A stretch of DNA of 64,000 nt, from NCBI GenBank assembly GCA_016929595.1, contig JAFGIN010000172.1:1-64000 (forward strand), written 5' to 3'. Position numbers and translations under genes: made by a program. How positions within the stretch are numbered: position 1 is the first letter of the stretch; the number at the start of each line of letters is the position of its first letter. Shown piece after piece: positions 1,887-13,422 of the stretch. A model generated the notes under the pieces. That model made no database searches. It worked only from the letters and a program-made list of their open reading frames with translations, and was not told the DNA's origin. The stretch is from Chitinispirillaceae bacterium (GTDB taxonomy: Bacteria > Fibrobacterota > Chitinivibrionia > Chitinivibrionales > Chitinispirillaceae).

Positions 1887-1913
1887 GTTATAATTCCTTG
1901 TTAAATAAATTAA

Positions 1914-1941
1914 AAAAGCCCGCTTTTCTGAGCGGGCTTTT
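1914..1941 (-). terminator. Attenuator terminator of leuA
   Basis: Read on the minus strand this is an 11-bp stem (AAAAGCCCGCT / AGCGGGCTTTT) with a 6-base loop and a run of six U. It lies between the leader peptide stop and the leuA ribosome site. Its 5' arm contains CGCTCAG (1934-1928), which is exactly complementary to CTGAGCG (1980-1974) at the end of the leader coding sequence. Antiterminator and terminator are therefore mutually exclusive, as in classic amino-acid attenuators. Confidence 0.85.
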
Positions 1942-1965
1942 GAATACTGTATTAGAATTTAAAAG

Positions 1966-2109
1966 TTATCGATCGCTCAGATTACATAGGAATAGATGTA
2001 GTAGGTATAGAGGCAGGGATAGTAATAGTGAAGCAGACGGAACAGGCTGTTTTGCGTTTTCAATCACAGTGTGTTCAAAAGCATATCTTTTTATCGGTTG
2101 AATGTTCAT
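1966..2109 (-). CDS. leuL: Leucine leader peptide (LeuL-like)
   Basis: A 47-codon reading frame upstream of leuA. Its last 20 codons hold ten leucines (seven CTA, one TTA, two CTG), clustered between 2028 and 1978, followed by TAA at 1968-1966. This is the hallmark of an attenuation leader: ribosomes stall on Leu codons when charged tRNA-Leu is scarce, freeing CTGAGCG (1980-1974) to pair with the 5' arm of the terminator at 1914-1941 and let transcription reach leuA. The first 20 or so codons show no leucine. The start is uncertain: ATG at 2109 has no clear ribosome site and lies close to a candidate promoter, and GTG at 2067 is an in-frame alternative. The peptide itself is not expected to have a function beyond sensing. 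Confidence 0.75.
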   Translation of the reverse strand: MNIQPIKRYAFEHTVIENAKQPVPSASLLLSLPLYLLHLFLCNLSDR

Positions 2110-2116
2110 ACTTTTA

Positions 2117-2144
2117 ATATTATAAAAAAAAACTGAATAAGCAA
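2117..2144 (-). promoter_or_regulatory. Candidate promoter of the leu leader
   Basis: On the minus strand TTGCTT (2144-2139) and TAATAT (2122-2117) are 16 bases apart, with an overlapping TATAAT at 2124-2119, separated by a T-run. Transcription would begin near 2110, almost at the leader ATG, implying a leaderless start or use of the internal GTG. Supported by motif match only. Confidence 0.35.
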
Positions 2145-2234: not shown

Positions 2235-3118
2235 ACTCAAATGTAATAAATCGCCTCCGCATATTTTCAAATTTTCTTCCCCCTCTCCATTTTTTTATGG
2301 AGAGGGGGACCGAGGGGGTGAGGCGGTATGAGGATATCGCGATATCATGTCAATGAAGTGAAAACTCAAATGTAATAAATCGCCTCCGCATCTTTTCACA
2401 TTCACCTCCCCCTCTCCATTTTTTTATGGAGAGGGGGACCAAGGGGGTGAGGCGATATGAGGATATCGCGATATCATGTCGATGAAGTGAATACTCAAAT
2501 GTAATAAATCGCCTCCGCATCTTTTCACATTTTCTTCCCCCTCTCCATTTTTTTATGGAGGGGGGGACCGAGGGGGTGAGGCGATATGAGGATATCGCGT
2601 TATCATGTCAATGAAGTAAAAACTCAAATGTAATAAATCGCCTCCGCATATTTACACATTTACCTCCCCCTCTCCATTTTTTATGGAGAGGGGGACCGAG
2701 GGGGTGAGGCGATATGAGGATATCGCGAAATCATGTCAATGAAGTGAAAACTCAAATGTAATAAATCGCCTCCGCATCTTTTCACATTCACCTCCCCCTC
2801 TCCATTTTTTATGGAGAGGGGGACCGAGGGGGTGAGGCGATATGAGGATATCGCGATATCATGTCAATGAAGTGAAAACTCAAATGTAATAAATCGCCTC
2901 CGCATCTTTTCACATTTACCTCCCCCTCTCCATTTTTTTATGGAGAGGGGGACCGAGGGGGTGAGGCGGTATGAGGATATCGCGTTATCATGTCAATGAA
3001 GTGAAAACTCAAATGTAATAAATCGCCTCCGCATCTTTTCACATTTTCTTCCCCCTCTCCATTTTTTTATGGAGAGGGGGACCGAGGGGGTGAGGCGATA
3101 TGAGAATATCGCGATATA
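2235..3118. repeat. Seven tandem 129-bp hairpin-rich repeats
   Basis: Units begin at 2235, 2364, 2493, 2622, 2750, 2878 and 3007, with periods of 128-129 bp and more than 90% identity by eye. Each has nested inverted repeats: CGCCTC pairs with GAGGCG, and CCCCCTCTCC pairs with GGAGAGGGGG across an AT-rich loop. Each also carries a GATATCGCGATATC-type palindrome near its end, changed to GCGTTATC in units 3 and 6 and GCGAAATC in unit 4. There is no open frame and there are no unique spacers. The array fills the gap between the radical SAM operon and the leu leader. Confidence 0.95.
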
Positions 3119-3163
3119 AGAAATAATCTTCGCAAAAAGAGCACGATTAATGAGTTAACCGGT

Positions 3164-4459
3164 TCACACCGGCTTACGCGAAATGTCAACTCTTCGGAAC
3201 AGCGCTTTTACGATAAGAGTCAGCAGATACGGATGTTGTATAAATTGCGGTAATCGGCGTAGCAGCTTTAACCAGACGGTTCTTTTAAAGTACCCGTGAA
3301 GTCGTTCATACATTCCCTGCACACCCGATTCAAGTTCTTCGGCACTCATGTTCGCCGGACGGAATACGGCATTCGACCAGCCATAGTCAAGTCGTGCGGT
3401 ACTGAGCAGCCGATTTTCACGTTTTAATTGTTCATAGAATTCGGTTCCGGGATATGGTGTCAGGATGTAGAGGCAGACATCATCCAGATTGATTTGCCGT
3501 ATCACCTTCTCCGTTTCGCTGAAGATCGAAGTATCGTCATTGTCAAATCCGAACATGAAAAACCCCAGCACCAGTATGTTGTACCGGTGAAATGCCTTTA
3601 CCACCTTGCTGTATTCTTCAATCCGGTTCTGGGCGATTCCTGCGGAATGGAGTGATTTCGGGTTGACAGTCTGGAATCCGATCTGAACATGGAAGCATCC
3701 TGCATCCGCCATGGCGGAAAGCAGTTTATCATTACCGGCAATATTGGTCGGAGCCTGAATGGACCAGAGCTTTTTTAGTGGTGCAATCTTTTTGCAGAGC
3801 CGGATTACGTACTCTTCATCGGCGAAAATGTTATCATCAACGAAAAAAATGATATTCTGCCTGAGGCTTTTAAGTTCCTCGTAAACAAGGTCTATGTCAC
3901 GAATACGGTGGCGATGCCACGGAACATTGGGGAGATAACAGAATTTACAGCTGTTAGGGCACCCCCGGCTTGTCTGTACGGTTGCTATCCAGTAATCCTC
4001 CCTGAGCAGGTCGCGTCGCGGCAGAGGAACATCATTCATATCGGTAGGGTGTTCCTGCTGGTACTTTTTTTTGAGAGTTCCGGATTCGACATCCCTGAGC
4101 ACATCTTTCCAGACATATTCAGCCTCACCCTGCACCACAGCATCGGCATGTTCCAGACACTCCTGGGGTAAAAGAGTCGGGTGAACGCCTCCGAGAATCA
4201 CCTTTGCACCAAGTGAACGCCACCGGTCGGCGAGTGTATATACCCGCTCCGATGTGAAGGTGGCGGTGGTGATTCCCACCAGGTCGAATTGTTCCTCCCA
4301 TGGTACCTCTTCCCAGTCGTTGTCACAAAGTCGCACATCATGGCCATCAGATAGTGCTGCGATCACTGAAATATGCAAGGGCGTGAATTTAACCTCTTCA
4401 AGGAAGCGATAGACTCCTCCGTGGACGAACCATTTCGGTTTTATCAATAAAATTTTCAT
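3164..4459 (-). CDS. B12-binding-type radical SAM protein
   Basis: A 431-residue protein. Residues about 1-130 look like the cobalamin-binding fold placed before many radical SAM domains, though the canonical DxHxxG histidine motif is not evident. The 4Fe-4S cluster motif CxxxCxxC is at C167, C171 and C174 (RGCPNSCKFCY), followed by VDDNIF, typical of the MiaB/HpnJ-like group, and a radical SAM barrel to about residue 350. Substrate unknown; relatives act on lipids, bacteriochlorophyll precursors or antibiotics. It overlaps the upstream SPASM-type radical SAM gene by 4 bases (4456-4459), so the two are translationally coupled and probably act in one pathway. Confidence 0.85.
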   Translation of the reverse strand: MKILLIKPKWFVHGGVYRFLEEVKFTPLHISVIAALSDGHDVRLCDNDWEEVPWEEQFDLVGITTATFTSERVYTLADRWRSLGAKVILGGVHPTLLPQECLEHADAVVQGEAEYVWKDVLRDVESGTLKKKYQQEHPTDMNDVPLPRRDLLREDYWIATVQTSRGCPNSCKFCYLPNVPWHRHRIRDIDLVYEELKSLRQNIIFFVDDNIFADEEYVIRLCKKIAPLKKLWSIQAPTNIAGNDKLLSAMADAGCFHVQIGFQTVNPKSLHSAGIAQNRIEEYSKVVKAFHRYNILVLGFFMFGFDNDDTSIFSETEKVIRQINLDDVCLYILTPYPGTEFYEQLKRENRLLSTARLDYGWSNAVFRPANMSAEELESGVQGMYERLHGYFKRTVWLKLLRRLPQFIQHPYLLTLIVKALFRRVDISRKPV

Positions 4460-7978: not shown

Positions 7979-10912
7979 ATGGATAAGATGCTCTATGGAA
8001 AACCCAGAATATTTATCGGTTCCAGTGCCAGAGCATACGAACTGGTTAAATGGCTGGCAGAACAGATTAGAAGTCATGATTTTGCGGTTCCGATAGAATG
8101 GAAATCTGGTGGTTTCGCTCCCTCGAAGAGTACACTGGATAATCTCCTGGAGCAGTGTAGAACGTGTGATTTTGCGGTAATTTTTTTTACCAGAGATGAT
8201 GATAAATTTGCAAAACAGCTAATTGATTCCAATCCCACTCAAATTTTCAAGGGACCAAGAGATAATACCATTTTTGAAGCTGGATTATTTGTTGGTGCTC
8301 TGGGGCTGGCTCCGGAACGATGTATTCTGGTAAGTACAGTTCTTGAATCAACTCTTCCTTCAGATATACGGGGAGTAACCTACATCCCTATTGATGAGCC
8401 ACCGCCGGCAGAACCTCCCAATAACCGGATTCCTGAGGATTGGTGTATGGAACATCTTCAGCAAGTGCTGCAGAGTGTAATATTGTCAGTAAAACAATAT
8501 GGTGAGCTGTTAAACAGGCCTGTTTTAAAGGTGTTGACTAAAAGTCAATTGGCAGAGCGGCAGCAGGTCGGAAAAAATTGTCTTGAAAAATATGACAAAG
8601 TAGTTATTACTTCATCGGAGCCCGAAGAATGTTGCGACTATATATTGGCGAAGTCGGTTTGCAGAAATATAAAAAAACATGTTTATTATGATTATCATTT
8701 TTTGTTTAGTAATCAAAACAGAGAAAACGTTGCAAGTCAATGGATAGATCTTATCAGAATACTTTTAGCAATGATTTTGATTTTAGATAAGGAATACACG
8801 GAAGGTGATCTGAAAAAAGACAGTGATATAAATGATATTATTAATGGTTGTATGGAAAAAGATGAAAAAGCTGTTGATGATGCAATAAATACATTAAAAG
8901 ACCAGCTAAGATTCTTTATACACAAAGACGATCAGCCATTTCCGGTAAGAGTGACGGTTCATAATTACAGTTCAAATGATAAAGCTGTCTGTTATCTGAG
9001 AAAAAATGATTACTACGTAGAGTGGTTTAATCATAATGAGGCACAGATGCCGATAAGGTTGCTTGGAAAATTAGAACGCGTGGATGACCGCGTTTTTCAG
9101 AATTCTGAAAAATTTAAGCTTTTTCCTGAAGAATATTCACAAGATTGCAATTGTGATGAAATGAAGGATGCATTACAAACTGCATCGGAAAATATCGATA
9201 AGACCATAATAGACAGAAAAGAAATTGATAATATGATACATGTTTTAAAAACATCAAAACATAAAATTGCCTGCAAAATGAGTTTAAGAGATTTAAAGAG
9301 TAAAATAAAAGATGTAAATGAAGAAAAATGTACTAAAATAATAATTAATGAATTGAAAAATTTGACTAAAAAAATCGTGAATGACTTTAACCAGACAAAA
9401 ATAACCTATAATGAAATCAGGGAATCGGTACATAAGGCATTTTTAGTCGAAAAGATTATTATAGAAAAATCTAACAAAATAATTAGAACAGTAAATGAAA
9501 AAATAAGTGATTTAAAATTAAATGACATAGATAAAATTAAGAAAGCTGTTGAAAATGCATATGAACAAGAAATAAAAACATTCTCATGGTTTGATACAAT
9601 AGAAAAATTGATAGATGAGGAAGTAAAAATACGAAAAAAAGGTTTAATGAATATTAGTGAGGCTAAAGAATTTGTTAAAACAGCACTTCAGAAATCAAAT
9701 ACTTCACCGTTAACAGTTAGTGAAATTAAGAAAGTGATAGATGATGCAGCTGGGGGTAGAAATGAAGCTATTTTTAGTGTAAATGAAATAAATGATCTGA
9801 TGGAAATAACGATACAAAGTAATAATGAAAAAAATACATTAATCAATGAAATTATATCTTTACTGTTGGATCAAGAAAAAAAATCATGCATCAGCGATGA
9901 TGATCTTAAAAATATGATAAAAAATCTGGAGAAGAGTATTATAAGTAAGGTATTAAAAGAGAGTGTTATTCAAAAAATTACAGATGTTTATTGTAAACAA
10001 AAATGTTATATGATCGATATTCATGATGTTACTATTTTATCAAACGATATGATAAAAAACACAGCTCTGCAAAAAAGTGAAAATCAGCTACACGCTTGCA
10101 GTCTCACATTGCTGCATAATATTGATATTCAGATTAATAAGGAATTCAATACAAATATAAAGATTAGCATATCTGATATTGAAAGATTATTTGATAATGT
10201 GAGCAGTAGCATTAATGAAGAAAATCAATTACCTATACTGTTTGAAATTACGGATTTTTTAAAAAAACAAATTCAGAATGAAATTGATAAACAAAATTAT
10301 GAAAAAAGTAAAAATGATAATCTCGAAGGAATGAAACTGAGAAAAATTCTGATGGAAAAAATTACCACATTATTTTCTGATTACAAATTAAGAGAAAAAA
10401 TCAGAGATCTCTGTTTTGGGGTTGAAGACACCAAAATAAAATCAGAATGGAGAAACCTCCTGTTGAAAACGTATGGAATAAAAAAAGATAAAAATATACT
10501 TTCGGTTATTGATTCAGTTTCGATAAATTATGATAACAAAAGATGGGAAATTGTAGAAAAAATAAAAGACATCGATGATGATACGCTTATTCCGGTTTTT
10601 TTAGATAGTGATAGAAAAAATGTAGTTGTTAGTAAAAAGCAATTGGAAGAATTCATATGTGTCTATAATGATAATTATGATGGAAAACATGATGGTACCA
10701 TTAATTTTGATAAATTAAAAACGATAATTGAACGGTGCAATATTAAGCAATACAGATTGATTGTACCGGAATCAATGGAAATTGAGACTGCAATGGAAAT
10801 GTTGAAGTCTATTCCAACCGAGGAAGAGTATTTACTTGTAACCAAGGATGGACTAGAGTCACAACCGGGAATCGGATGCATTCAAAAATCAAAGTTATTC
10901 GAAATAATTTAG
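7979..10912 (+). CDS. TIR-like (PF10137-type) protein with helical repeats and a C-terminal CBS-like pair
   Basis: A 977-residue protein preceded by GGGGGAAG. Residues about 8-175 form a TIR-like nucleotide-binding domain of the Cap12/PycTIR type: PRIFIGSS (9-16), CDFAVIFFTRDD (63-74) and RDNTIFEAGLF (94-104) with likely catalytic Glu100. Residues about 185-370 are a second domain, shared with the next gene, that I cannot name. About 400-790 is a Lys/Ile/Asn-rich helical insert with at least seven degenerate repeats of the type hydrophobic-x-[VIL]-[NS]-[ED]-[IL]-x-x-[LIV]-[IMV]. A short shared block (LRKILMEKI to LCFG) follows, then a C-terminal CBS-like pair (about 860-977). TIR domains of this kind cleave or bind NAD in phage defence. 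The gene is AT-rich compared with its surroundings, suggesting transfer. It lies 35 bases upstream of its paralogue. Confidence 0.75.
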   Translation: MDKMLYGKPRIFIGSSARAYELVKWLAEQIRSHDFAVPIEWKSGGFAPSKSTLDNLLEQCRTCDFAVIFFTRDDDKFAKQLIDSNPTQIFKGPRDNTIFEAGLFVGALGLAPERCILVSTVLESTLPSDIRGVTYIPIDEPPPAEPPNNRIPEDWCMEHLQQVLQSVILSVKQYGELLNRPVLKVLTKSQLAERQQVGKNCLEKYDKVVITSSEPEECCDYILAKSVCRNIKKHVYYDYHFLFSNQNRENVASQWIDLIRILLAMILILDKEYTEGDLKKDSDINDIINGCMEKDEKAVDDAINTLKDQLRFFIHKDDQPFPVRVTVHNYSSNDKAVCYLRKNDYYVEWFNHNEAQMPIRLLGKLERVDDRVFQNSEKFKLFPEEYSQDCNCDEMKDALQTASENIDKTIIDRKEIDNMIHVLKTSKHKIACKMSLRDLKSKIKDVNEEKCTKIIINELKNLTKKIVNDFNQTKITYNEIRESVHKAFLVEKIIIEKSNKIIRTVNEKISDLKLNDIDKIKKAVENAYEQEIKTFSWFDTIEKLIDEEVKIRKKGLMNISEAKEFVKTALQKSNTSPLTVSEIKKVIDDAAGGRNEAIFSVNEINDLMEITIQSNNEKNTLINEIISLLLDQEKKSCISDDDLKNMIKNLEKSIISKVLKESVIQKITDVYCKQKCYMIDIHDVTILSNDMIKNTALQKSENQLHACSLTLLHNIDIQINKEFNTNIKISISDIERLFDNVSSSINEENQLPILFEITDFLKKQIQNEIDKQNYEKSKNDNLEGMKLRKILMEKITTLFSDYKLREKIRDLCFGVEDTKIKSEWRNLLLKTYGIKKDKNILSVIDSVSINYDNKRWEIVEKIKDIDDDTLIPVFLDSDRKNVVVSKKQLEEFICVYNDNYDGKHDGTINFDKLKTIIERCNIKQYRLIVPESMEIETAMEMLKSIPTEEEYLLVTKDGLESQPGIGCIQKSKLFEII

Positions 10913-10947
10913 AACAAAGTATAAATACATCTTTTCAAGGAGAATCG

Positions 10948-13422
10948 ATGGTTGAAAAAATCTCAGGGATACCAAAAATATTTATCGGTTCGAGTAACAA
11001 AGCATACGAACTGGTAAAATGGCTTGCTGAGCAAATCAGAAGTTATAATTTGGCAATTCCAATAGAATGGAAAACCGGTGGTTTTGCACCATCCAAGAGT
11101 ACTTTACAGAATCTGATTGATCAATGCAGAGTATGTGATTTTGCGGTATTATTTTTTACACGAGATGATAACAAACTATCAGGTGGAGATCAAACCGGAA
11201 ACCCTTTGGACATATTCAAAGGACCAAGGGACAACATGATATTTGAAGCTGGATTTTTTGTGGGTGGGCTGGGGCTTCAACCTGAACGTTGTCTTCTGGT
11301 TAGTTCTGTTGAAGAAAGGACACTTCCTTCGGATTTAAAAGGGGTTACTTATATTAAAATTGATGAGCCACCGCCGCCGGAACCACCGTATAACAGACTT
11401 TCTGAAGAATGGTGCAGAGAGCATCTTCAGGGAGTATTGGAAAGCGTTGTCTATTCTGTTAATAAACACGGCGAATTTCTGTATAGGCCGTTATTAAAAA
11501 TACTGACAAAAAAGGAGCTTGCCGAAAGAGAGCAGGTTGGAAAAGATTGTCTGGAAAAGTATGATCGTGTAGTATTTAATTCTTCGGAACCCGAGGATCT
11601 GTGCGAGTTTGATCTTGCCCGGGCTATTGCCGAAAATATTAAAAATTTTGTCTATTATGATTTTCATTTTAAAATCAGTGAAACAAATTATGAAAATGTA
11701 GGAAGTCAATTTATTGATCTTATAAGAATTCTCATGGCAACCTATTGTATTGGAGAAAAAAAGTATTCTGAAGGAGATTTGAAACAGGAGAAAGATATAA
11801 AAGACTTCCTTTGTTTAAAAGAAAACAGGGTTCTTATTGAAAGTGCCATAAATGATTTTAAAAAACGGCTGAATATTTTCATTCATAAATATACACACCC
11901 CATTCCATTCAGAATTTCTGTCCATAATGTGAGTTCATTTGATCGGGCAAAATGTTATTTGCGCCATGGGGAATTTTATGTAGAATGGTTCCTCAGGGAT
12001 GAGGCCCGGGAAGCGATTGATATACTGAAAAATAATGAAGAAGAAGAAGTGGAGTTTGACAAAAAAGGAAAAATCATTCAAACAACAGATAATTTTGATC
12101 TGTATAGTGAAGAGATTACTGAAGACGTTGCTAAAAAATTCCGAAAAGACCCGAATGGTGAGATAAAAAAATTAATCGATGAAAAGATAAATGACTATAA
12201 TCTTAAGAATATTGAAGATAGAAGCAAATTTATTAAAATAATAAAAACACGGTTAAGGACAATAAATAATCATCGAACAGATTTAGAAAAGAAATTGCGA
12301 AAAACCTTAATGAAAAAAATTATCGATCTGTTCCCGGATGAACTCTGGGCACAAATAAGAGAATTGTGTTTTGGAAATGATATAGATTTTGTCATGGAAG
12401 AATGGGAAAATATTTCAAAAAAGGGCAATGGAAGTATCATAGAAAAAGGTGTCCTTAGTGTTATGAAAAAAATTAACGATATTCATATAACTGATACGGT
12501 GAATGGGGCATGGGAAAAAATAAAATCATTACCGGGAAAATGCCCGGTTCGTGTATACGGAAAAAATAATGATACATTCTGGGAAACTGATAAAGAAAAA
12601 CTGGAACGCAGGAAACAAAATGATGGAAACAAAAAATTGGAAGAGTTGAGCATAGACAAAGATAACATAAAAGTAATTGATGATTTTTTAGATATACTGC
12701 CATTATTTGAAAAAGTATCAGATGAAATTAAGAATTCAAAAAGTGATAATTTACCACAAGTTAATGAAAAGATAAGTAACATATATGATAAGTTAAAATT
12801 CGTAGTTAGTAAAATGTCAAAGATCTTTGAAAAGTGTGAATATATGCAATCAAAAAAAGATTCTTTATCGAATATGCTAAAAAAAATAAATGGAAATGTA
12901 TTTCAGTCCATATATATGAAGATGTTTCAAAAAATTGATGATTTACCATTTATTGAGCCAGAGATTTTTACTAGAATACTGAAATCAAAGGACGGTGAAA
13001 AAGAAAATGATGAAATAGACAATATGAGTGAGTTGTTAGGAAAAAATATTGATAACATTAAAGAATCATTTGAAATTTTGAGATATTTGCTAGTACATAG
13101 AACCGAAATACTGGCAGAAATTCAAATAGTAGAAAATTGGGAGGATGTACAGAGTGATGCAGATTTACAAAATATGATACAAACAATGAAAGATTTATTA
13201 TCGTATGATATTTTACTAGCACCAGGAGAAACCGATGGTCGGAAAAATGATTATTCTGTTGCCTACATATCAAAATTACAGAAAGTATCATTTGCTAATA
13301 AATTGTTCAAATCGATGCCTGATTGTAATTGTATTGTAATTACTGATAATGGTAAGAAAACAGAGAAATGGCTGGGTGTAATAGATAGAAACGATCTATT
13401 GTATGCGTATGAAAAGAAATGA
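10948..13422 (+). CDS. TIR-like (PF10137-type) protein with a split CBS-like pair, paralogue of upstream gene
   Basis: About 824 residues. ATG 10948 is preferred because AAGGAG lies 6 bases before it; a longer frame from 10876 would overlap the upstream gene. The TIR-like domain (about 9-175) has PKIFIGSS, CDFAVLFFTRDD and RDNMIFEAGFF with Glu100. The unnamed second domain (185-370) closely follows that of the upstream paralogue (KDCLEKYDRVV, then NIKNFVYYDFHF). The helical insert at the paralogue's position is short. After the LRKTLMKKI to LCFG block, one CBS-like half (about 513-555) and a second (about 770-824, ending KWLGVIDRNDLL) are separated by roughly 200 residues of coiled helices. 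Probably co-transcribed with its paralogue and acting with it, possibly as a hetero-complex. Confidence 0.75.
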   Translation: MVEKISGIPKIFIGSSNKAYELVKWLAEQIRSYNLAIPIEWKTGGFAPSKSTLQNLIDQCRVCDFAVLFFTRDDNKLSGGDQTGNPLDIFKGPRDNMIFEAGFFVGGLGLQPERCLLVSSVEERTLPSDLKGVTYIKIDEPPPPEPPYNRLSEEWCREHLQGVLESVVYSVNKHGEFLYRPLLKILTKKELAEREQVGKDCLEKYDRVVFNSSEPEDLCEFDLARAIAENIKNFVYYDFHFKISETNYENVGSQFIDLIRILMATYCIGEKKYSEGDLKQEKDIKDFLCLKENRVLIESAINDFKKRLNIFIHKYTHPIPFRISVHNVSSFDRAKCYLRHGEFYVEWFLRDEAREAIDILKNNEEEEVEFDKKGKIIQTTDNFDLYSEEITEDVAKKFRKDPNGEIKKLIDEKINDYNLKNIEDRSKFIKIIKTRLRTINNHRTDLEKKLRKTLMKKIIDLFPDELWAQIRELCFGNDIDFVMEEWENISKKGNGSIIEKGVLSVMKKINDIHITDTVNGAWEKIKSLPGKCPVRVYGKNNDTFWETDKEKLERRKQNDGNKKLEELSIDKDNIKVIDDFLDILPLFEKVSDEIKNSKSDNLPQVNEKISNIYDKLKFVVSKMSKIFEKCEYMQSKKDSLSNMLKKINGNVFQSIYMKMFQKIDDLPFIEPEIFTRILKSKDGEKENDEIDNMSELLGKNIDNIKESFEILRYLLVHRTEILAEIQIVENWEDVQSDADLQNMIQTMKDLLSYDILLAPGETDGRKNDYSVAYISKLQKVSFANKLFKSMPDCNCIVITDNGKKTEKWLGVIDRNDLLYAYEKK

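Follow-up and report, generated by a model that had tools for sequence, protein, structure and literature searches.

The closest described counterparts of the locus considered here are the leu attenuators of Escherichia coli and Salmonella, in which a Leu-rich leader containing CTA codons is followed by an intrinsic terminator and then by leuA, and whose regulatory logic it appears to share. E. coli leuL carries three consecutive CTA codons, and the leu attenuator of S. Typhimurium, as described at second hand in PMC1183508, has CUA control codons and became less sensitive when these were changed to CUG (Carter et al. 1986). According to a 2010 paper, no such leaders were known from phyla other than Proteobacteria and Actinobacteria (PMC2965389), and a preliminary description of the present locus likewise placed ribosome-stalling attenuation mainly in these two groups; that view holds in part, as leader-peptide attenuation is also described in Firmicutes (PMC5794164, PMC5864092), with strong clues in flavobacteria (PMC9723704), so that its presence in a further lineage is a moderate surprise. 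A full-text literature search centred on Fibrobacter found no earlier report of leader-peptide amino-acid attenuation in the phylum Fibrobacterota. Here we analyse a candidate leucine attenuator in a 64,000-nucleotide stretch (the window) from a member of the Chitinispirillaceae, within that phylum, and compare it with related leaders. By sequence comparison we demonstrate a leader, its CTA-rich codons, predicted mutually exclusive arms, a terminator, a cognate gene and the joint conservation of these parts.

A leucine leader precedes a second leuA

The elements of the locus are collected in Table 1. As the preliminary description had it, the leader is of 47 codons with ten Leu codons in the last 20, seven of them CTA; this is confirmed by the ORF at 2109-1966(-), which translates as MNIQPIKRYAFEHTVIENAKQPVPSASLLLSLPLYLLHLFLCNLSDR up to the stop codon, ends in SASLLLSLPLYLLHLFLCNLSDR, and has two CTG and one TTA as its remaining Leu codons. 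The proposed complementarity of CTGAGCG (1980-1974) to CGCTCAG (1934-1928) proved exact, and one more pair on the 5' side brings it to 8 bp, all eight bases of TCTGAGCG (1981-1974) pairing with CGCTCAGA (1934-1927). A 24-nt spacer lies between TCTGAGCG, at the leader end, and the terminator, which reads AAAAGCCCGCTCAGAAAAGCGGGCTTTT (1941-1914) followed by T and has the stem-loop-stem layout AAAAGCCCGCT-CAGAAA-AGCGGGCTTTT. Since the pairing of TCTGAGCG with CGCTCAGA enters the terminator loop, TCTGAGCG does more than duplicate the 3' arm of the terminator. Directly upstream of the leader, at ~2250-3190, lie several copies of a non-coding repeat of roughly 130 bp (CACCCCCTCGGTCCCCCTCTCCATAAAAAAATGGAGAGGGGGA...).

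Table 1. Elements of the leuA leader region, with positions in the window.
Feature	Coordinates	Strand	Basis or remark
Candidate -10 box TATAAT	2119..2124	-	9 nt 5' of leader ATG
Leader peptide ORF, 47 aa, 10 Leu (7 CTA)	1966..2109	-	ORF; kept in all 5 same-family genomes that carry leuA of this type
Leucine control region, codons 28-44, nearly G-free	1978..2028	-	Sequence; CTA enrichment p 4e-8 against same-genome genes
Putative antiterminator 5' arm TCTGAGCG	1974..1981	-	Within leader ORF end
Putative antiterminator 3' arm CGCTCAGA (terminator 5' arm and loop)	1927..1934	-	Pairing
Intrinsic terminator hairpin, 11 bp, about -17 kcal/mol, U tract	1914..1941	-	2/11 pairs with double changes, 5 relatives
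Candidate Shine-Dalgarno AAGGA of leuA	1895..1899	-	Sequence
leuA, 2-isopropylmalate synthase, 553 codons	225..1886	-	NF002991

The encoded enzyme belongs to the 550-aa PRK03739/NF002991 type (NF002991 717 bits, cut-off 455). It is a second leuA in its genome, the operon copy, of the leuA_bact type, lying on another contig (C84). In the LeuA tree the window protein has a branch of 1.09, roughly twice the length of those of its clade-mates; it retains the DLRDGNQ and HTHNDRG motifs and departs at five otherwise invariant positions.

As to the genome more widely, the assembly contains no 16S rRNA; TIGR02147 (Fsuc_second, named for Fibrobacter succinogenes) points to Fibrobacterota, since 111 of the phylum's 121 genomes have it, mostly as many copies, and 14 control genomes lack it altogether. 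The genome of the window holds at least 18 copies, together with a FISUMP domain, a type IX sorting tail and FliF. Its order, presumably Chitinivibrionales, would be a different one from that of the most species-rich genus (g24, probably Fibrobacter). Elsewhere in the window (7979-13422), two adjoining large genes each carry a CAP12/Pycsar-type TIR domain (PF10137) and perhaps serve in anti-phage defence. A search for a his attenuator through runs of His codons returned 88 matches in the genome and was not discriminating.

Conservation of the leader among relatives

At least ten Leu in 20 residues would be expected with a probability of about 7e-6, assuming 10% Leu, and a scan of the whole 64-kb window on both strands for a Leu-rich short ORF followed by a terminator returned a single match, the leuA leader. 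The arm pairing in the window was equalled by 0.2% of dinucleotide shuffles; the corresponding p values were 0.0005-0.008 in each of five Leu leaders, and for 18 leaders of both the Leu and the Ilv kind (see below) the combined Fisher value was 4e-31.

The five Leu leaders come from five genera of the same family that have this leuA (the window's own genome, G000, and G006, G004, G008 and G003), and leader, arm and terminator are present in all of them. LeuA of the four relatives is 50-57% identical to that of the window, and the proteins form a single clade (99% SH-aLRT). Their leaders end in LHLLSLFL, LFLLHLFLHLLSGI, LYLLYLFL and LYLLLTLFLRF, each directly before the stop codon, with arms of 6, 8, 6 and 10 bp, respectively; in G003 the pairing, GATTCTGAGC with GCTCAGAATC, covers ten bases and runs through the loop. 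Peptide N-termini differ among the five, and the parts are identical in kind. The genes flanking leuA are a radical-SAM-like gene in the window (from the ORF sequence) and, in the relatives, NAD synthase; a cellulase and a TraB-like gene; a glycosyltransferase and an oxidoreductase; and a GHMP kinase and a LysM protein. As the flanking genes differ in each genome, leader and leuA have been kept together despite a changed neighbourhood. Loss of the Leu codons or of the complementarity in relatives had been named beforehand as what would count against an attenuator; instead, all five genomes retain a Leu- and CTA-rich leader, a 6-10 bp arm and a terminator. Conservation in four other genera is the strongest evidence against chance.

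A covariance model built from the five Leu leaders (R1) gave strong matches, among 151 genomes of the phylum, in those five only (E 6e-24 to 1e-18); the next match (E 8e-6) was confined to the model's terminator half, as were most of the weak matches elsewhere (E above 1e-6). Two weak matches inspected in the window's own genome, on contigs C70 and C172, showed no Leu leader. Covariation, suggested at the outset as a check, was found in the terminator, where 2 of 11 pairs change on both sides among the five relatives, and not in the antiterminator, whose core is invariant among the few sequences available, with no double changes in the five Leu leaders. Together, conservation in relatives, arm pairing, model specificity and CTA codons support the original proposal of a leucine attenuator upstream of leuA.

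Beyond these genera, members of the sister family f7 and a single f4 genome (L092) have this leuA with no Leu leader directly before it. In two f7 genomes it follows ilvN within an ilvB operon, which is itself preceded by a Leu/Val leader attenuator (peptide MVQTTLLLVNVVVLRKKSAG). Outside the phylum, the same type of leuA is preceded by a T-box in three Bacillota MAGs and, by inspection only, by Leu-rich leaders and hairpins in myxococcal, spirochaetal and planctomycete MAGs. No T-box (RF00230) matched in the window or in the four relatives, no Rfam family, riboswitches included, reached its gathering threshold in the window, and the Rfam Leu_leader family (RF00512) scored 24.0 bits against a gathering threshold of 50.

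Codon choice and the predicted start of the transcript

In sampled genes of the five genomes CTA is used less than any other Leu codon (2.9-7.3% of Leu codons), and yet it accounts for 26 of 47 in the five leaders taken together (per-genome p 0.0025 to 1e-8), a preference with a parallel in the CUA control codons of S. Typhimurium. The recurrence of a rare CTA control codon in a phylum so distant from E. coli provides a further case for the tRNA-charging theory of control-codon choice.

In 13 of 18 leaders the best promoter-like pair has its -10 box 3-9 nt upstream of the ATG (binomial about 4e-6), which suggests that most leaders are probably translated from the RNA 5' end; in the remaining five the distance is 17-22 nt, mostly with a Shine-Dalgarno-like sequence. 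The -10 box in the window is a perfect TATAAT, but the full -35/-10 score there is no better than that of shuffles (p 0.73), and the site draws its support from the like placement in those 13 leaders. For most leaders, that of the window included, the predicted transcription start appears to coincide with the first codon or to lie no more than a few bases from it. Leader peptides without a 5' UTR are known from S. meliloti trpL (PMC7298713) and S. lividans (PMC8079986).

Parallel leaders before the ilv-leu operon

The operon copy of leuA in the window's genome has a leader of its own. On contig C84 an Ile/Leu/Val-rich leader (724-816, L129; MNTLNLINNLLDPIVINSGIILLSSGSAGL to the stop codon) precedes ilvB-ilvN-ilvC-leuA_bact-leuB, with a citramalate-synthase-like gene and ilvE further down. 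Most members of the order have Ile/Val/Leu-rich leaders of this kind (L130-L144, L145-L174) ahead of the ilv-leu operon, and a covariance model from 13 Ilv leaders (R2) gave strong matches throughout the order and in some other families. Most of these leaders end in VIIVPxxRETG before the stop codon, the RETG codons forming the antiterminator arm, which pairs with the terminator over 9-15 bp. In the alignment of the Ilv antiterminators 97% of cells pair, as against at most 66% in slid versions; 7 of 11 pairs have changed on both sides, and no shuffle attains the observed covariation score. Covariation in this independent set argues that an architecture in which the arm resides in the last leader codons has been selected in this lineage. 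A similar leader and terminator precede ilvD in f9 and f10 (L222, L225), and in f11 a leader and terminator precede an EamA-like transporter (L223, L224; gene call by eye).

Proposed mechanism

With a Leu-rich leader ORF, an intermediate intrinsic terminator, an arm-sharing antiterminator and the cognate gene directly downstream, the locus is, by its predicted features, one that falls within the testable definition of ribosome-mediated amino-acid attenuators. It very probably represents a cis-acting, ribosome-mediated transcription attenuator that would tie a stand-alone leuA to charged leucyl-tRNA, chiefly the CTA-reading tRNA. In the mechanism we propose, transcription would start at the leader ATG or a few bases 5' of it, with the ribosome trailing the polymerase. 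When leucine is ample, the ribosome would arrive at the leader end and cover TCTGAGCG, allowing the terminator to form and transcription to stop; when leucine is scarce it would stall in the CTA run, leaving TCTGAGCG free to pair with CGCTCAGA once this has been made, so that the terminator would be blocked and leuA transcribed.

A simple footprint model, in which a ribosome is assumed to extend from the A-site codon about 18 nt upstream and 12 nt downstream, can accommodate both states. On reaching the stop codon it covers the arm entirely in the window and to 83-100% in all 18 leaders; stalled at a Leu codon, it leaves the arm free for 8 of the 10 in the window and, across leaders, for 6-9 of 8-10. 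In folding calculations for the window the antiterminator (about -11 kcal/mol) is weaker than the terminator (about -17 kcal/mol) and must accordingly act by forming first, like known attenuators. Two relatives with a 6-bp pairing, in which the antiterminator is far weaker still (about -7 against -18 to -20 kcal/mol), would likewise rely on this order of formation.

The preliminary description considered all classic parts to be present, which is borne out for leader, antiterminator, terminator and gene, and not for the four-arm anatomy, as a protector hairpin is unsupported: no upstream segment pairs with the arm beyond shuffles in either kind of leader (Fisher p 0.78 for Leu and 0.99 for Ilv, in a crude comparison of contiguous pairs only). 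It appears that the competitor of the antiterminator would be the ribosome itself rather than a protector hairpin. A three-arm switch is the simplest reading, and predicts read-through when the leader is wholly untranslated; if true, such a design would be ON by default without translation, the opposite of the 'superattenuated' default of trp. That a minimal three-arm attenuator, with the ribosome as sole competitor and a leader translated from the RNA 5' end, is the order-wide form of branched-chain control is a more tentative suggestion, which we consider possible and rather doubtful.

Alternative explanations

The leader could instead encode a nascent-chain arrest peptide, in which a hydrophobic L-x-LL-x-LFL segment stalls the ribosome upon binding of a metabolite, and not because Leu codons are decoded slowly. 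Four of the five leaders indeed keep the spacing L-(Y/H/F)-LL-x-LFL, the fifth having one extra residue; the motif extends beyond the Leu codons themselves, and the synonymous changes in it, such as Phe TTC/TTT (2028-1978 in the window, and L083-L086), hint at selection at the peptide level. However, an arrest peptide would not need a strongly preferred rare CTA codon, the Leu run is long and repetitive, the C-terminus of the leader varies from genus to genus, and a G-free, unstructured RNA may itself account for the conserved spacing; we accordingly regard arrest as improbable.

That the ORF encodes a genuine small membrane protein or toxin-like peptide, located by chance before leuA and followed by an ordinary terminator, would be in keeping with the hydrophobic peptide and the adjacent terminator, but conservation is limited to the Leu run and extends to neither terminus, the ORF always lies directly before this leuA in otherwise differing neighbourhoods, and its last codons form the putative antiterminator arm, all of which makes this explanation highly improbable. 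For a single locus taken alone, and given the weak promoter score, a chance ORF beside the terminator of an upstream transcript would be conceivable; conservation in five genera, the specificity of the covariance model and the codon bias contradict it to the point that it is scarcely credible. Ribosome-mediated attenuation remains the reading that we prefer.

Relation to known systems

These observations extend amino-acid leader-peptide attenuation to Fibrobacterota, where it was apparently unreported. What is new is the phylum and a leucine-only switch on a second leuA, separate from the operon copy, the principle being already known. About 30 Ilv and five Leu leaders now form a set for comparative study of the switch.

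Among leaders outside Proteobacteria, those of actinobacterial leuA (the LEU element; S. lividans LeuL1 and LeuL2) resemble the window leader in having a run of Leu codons before leuA and in being transcribed without a 5' UTR (PMC8079986), but involve a pseudoknot and no typical terminator (PMC1262725, PMC8079986), whereas the window has a plain terminator/antiterminator pair. The leucine-rich ilv-leu attenuator of Staphylococcus aureus and Rli60 of Listeria similarly represent branched-chain leader-peptide attenuation (PMC5794164, PMC5864092); they differ in serving a whole ilv-leu operon, together with CodY, and are unrelated in sequence. With respect to the enterobacteria, E. coli leuL is a peptide of 28 aa with four adjacent Leu codons and precedes a leuA of the leuA_bact type, whilst the window leader spreads ten Leu codons over 17 and precedes a leuA of the NF002991 type; moreover, the four-arm leu and trp type has a protector arm, of which none was found for the window leader. 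Finally, the tail of the E. coli ilvGMEDA leader peptide IlvL (VVVIIIPPCGAALGRGKA) can be set beside that of the Ilv leader of G004 (VVSGVVIIIPKGRGTGA): the Ilv leader tails of the order resemble IlvL (VVIIIP...GRG), and in both it is the final codons that supply the arm.
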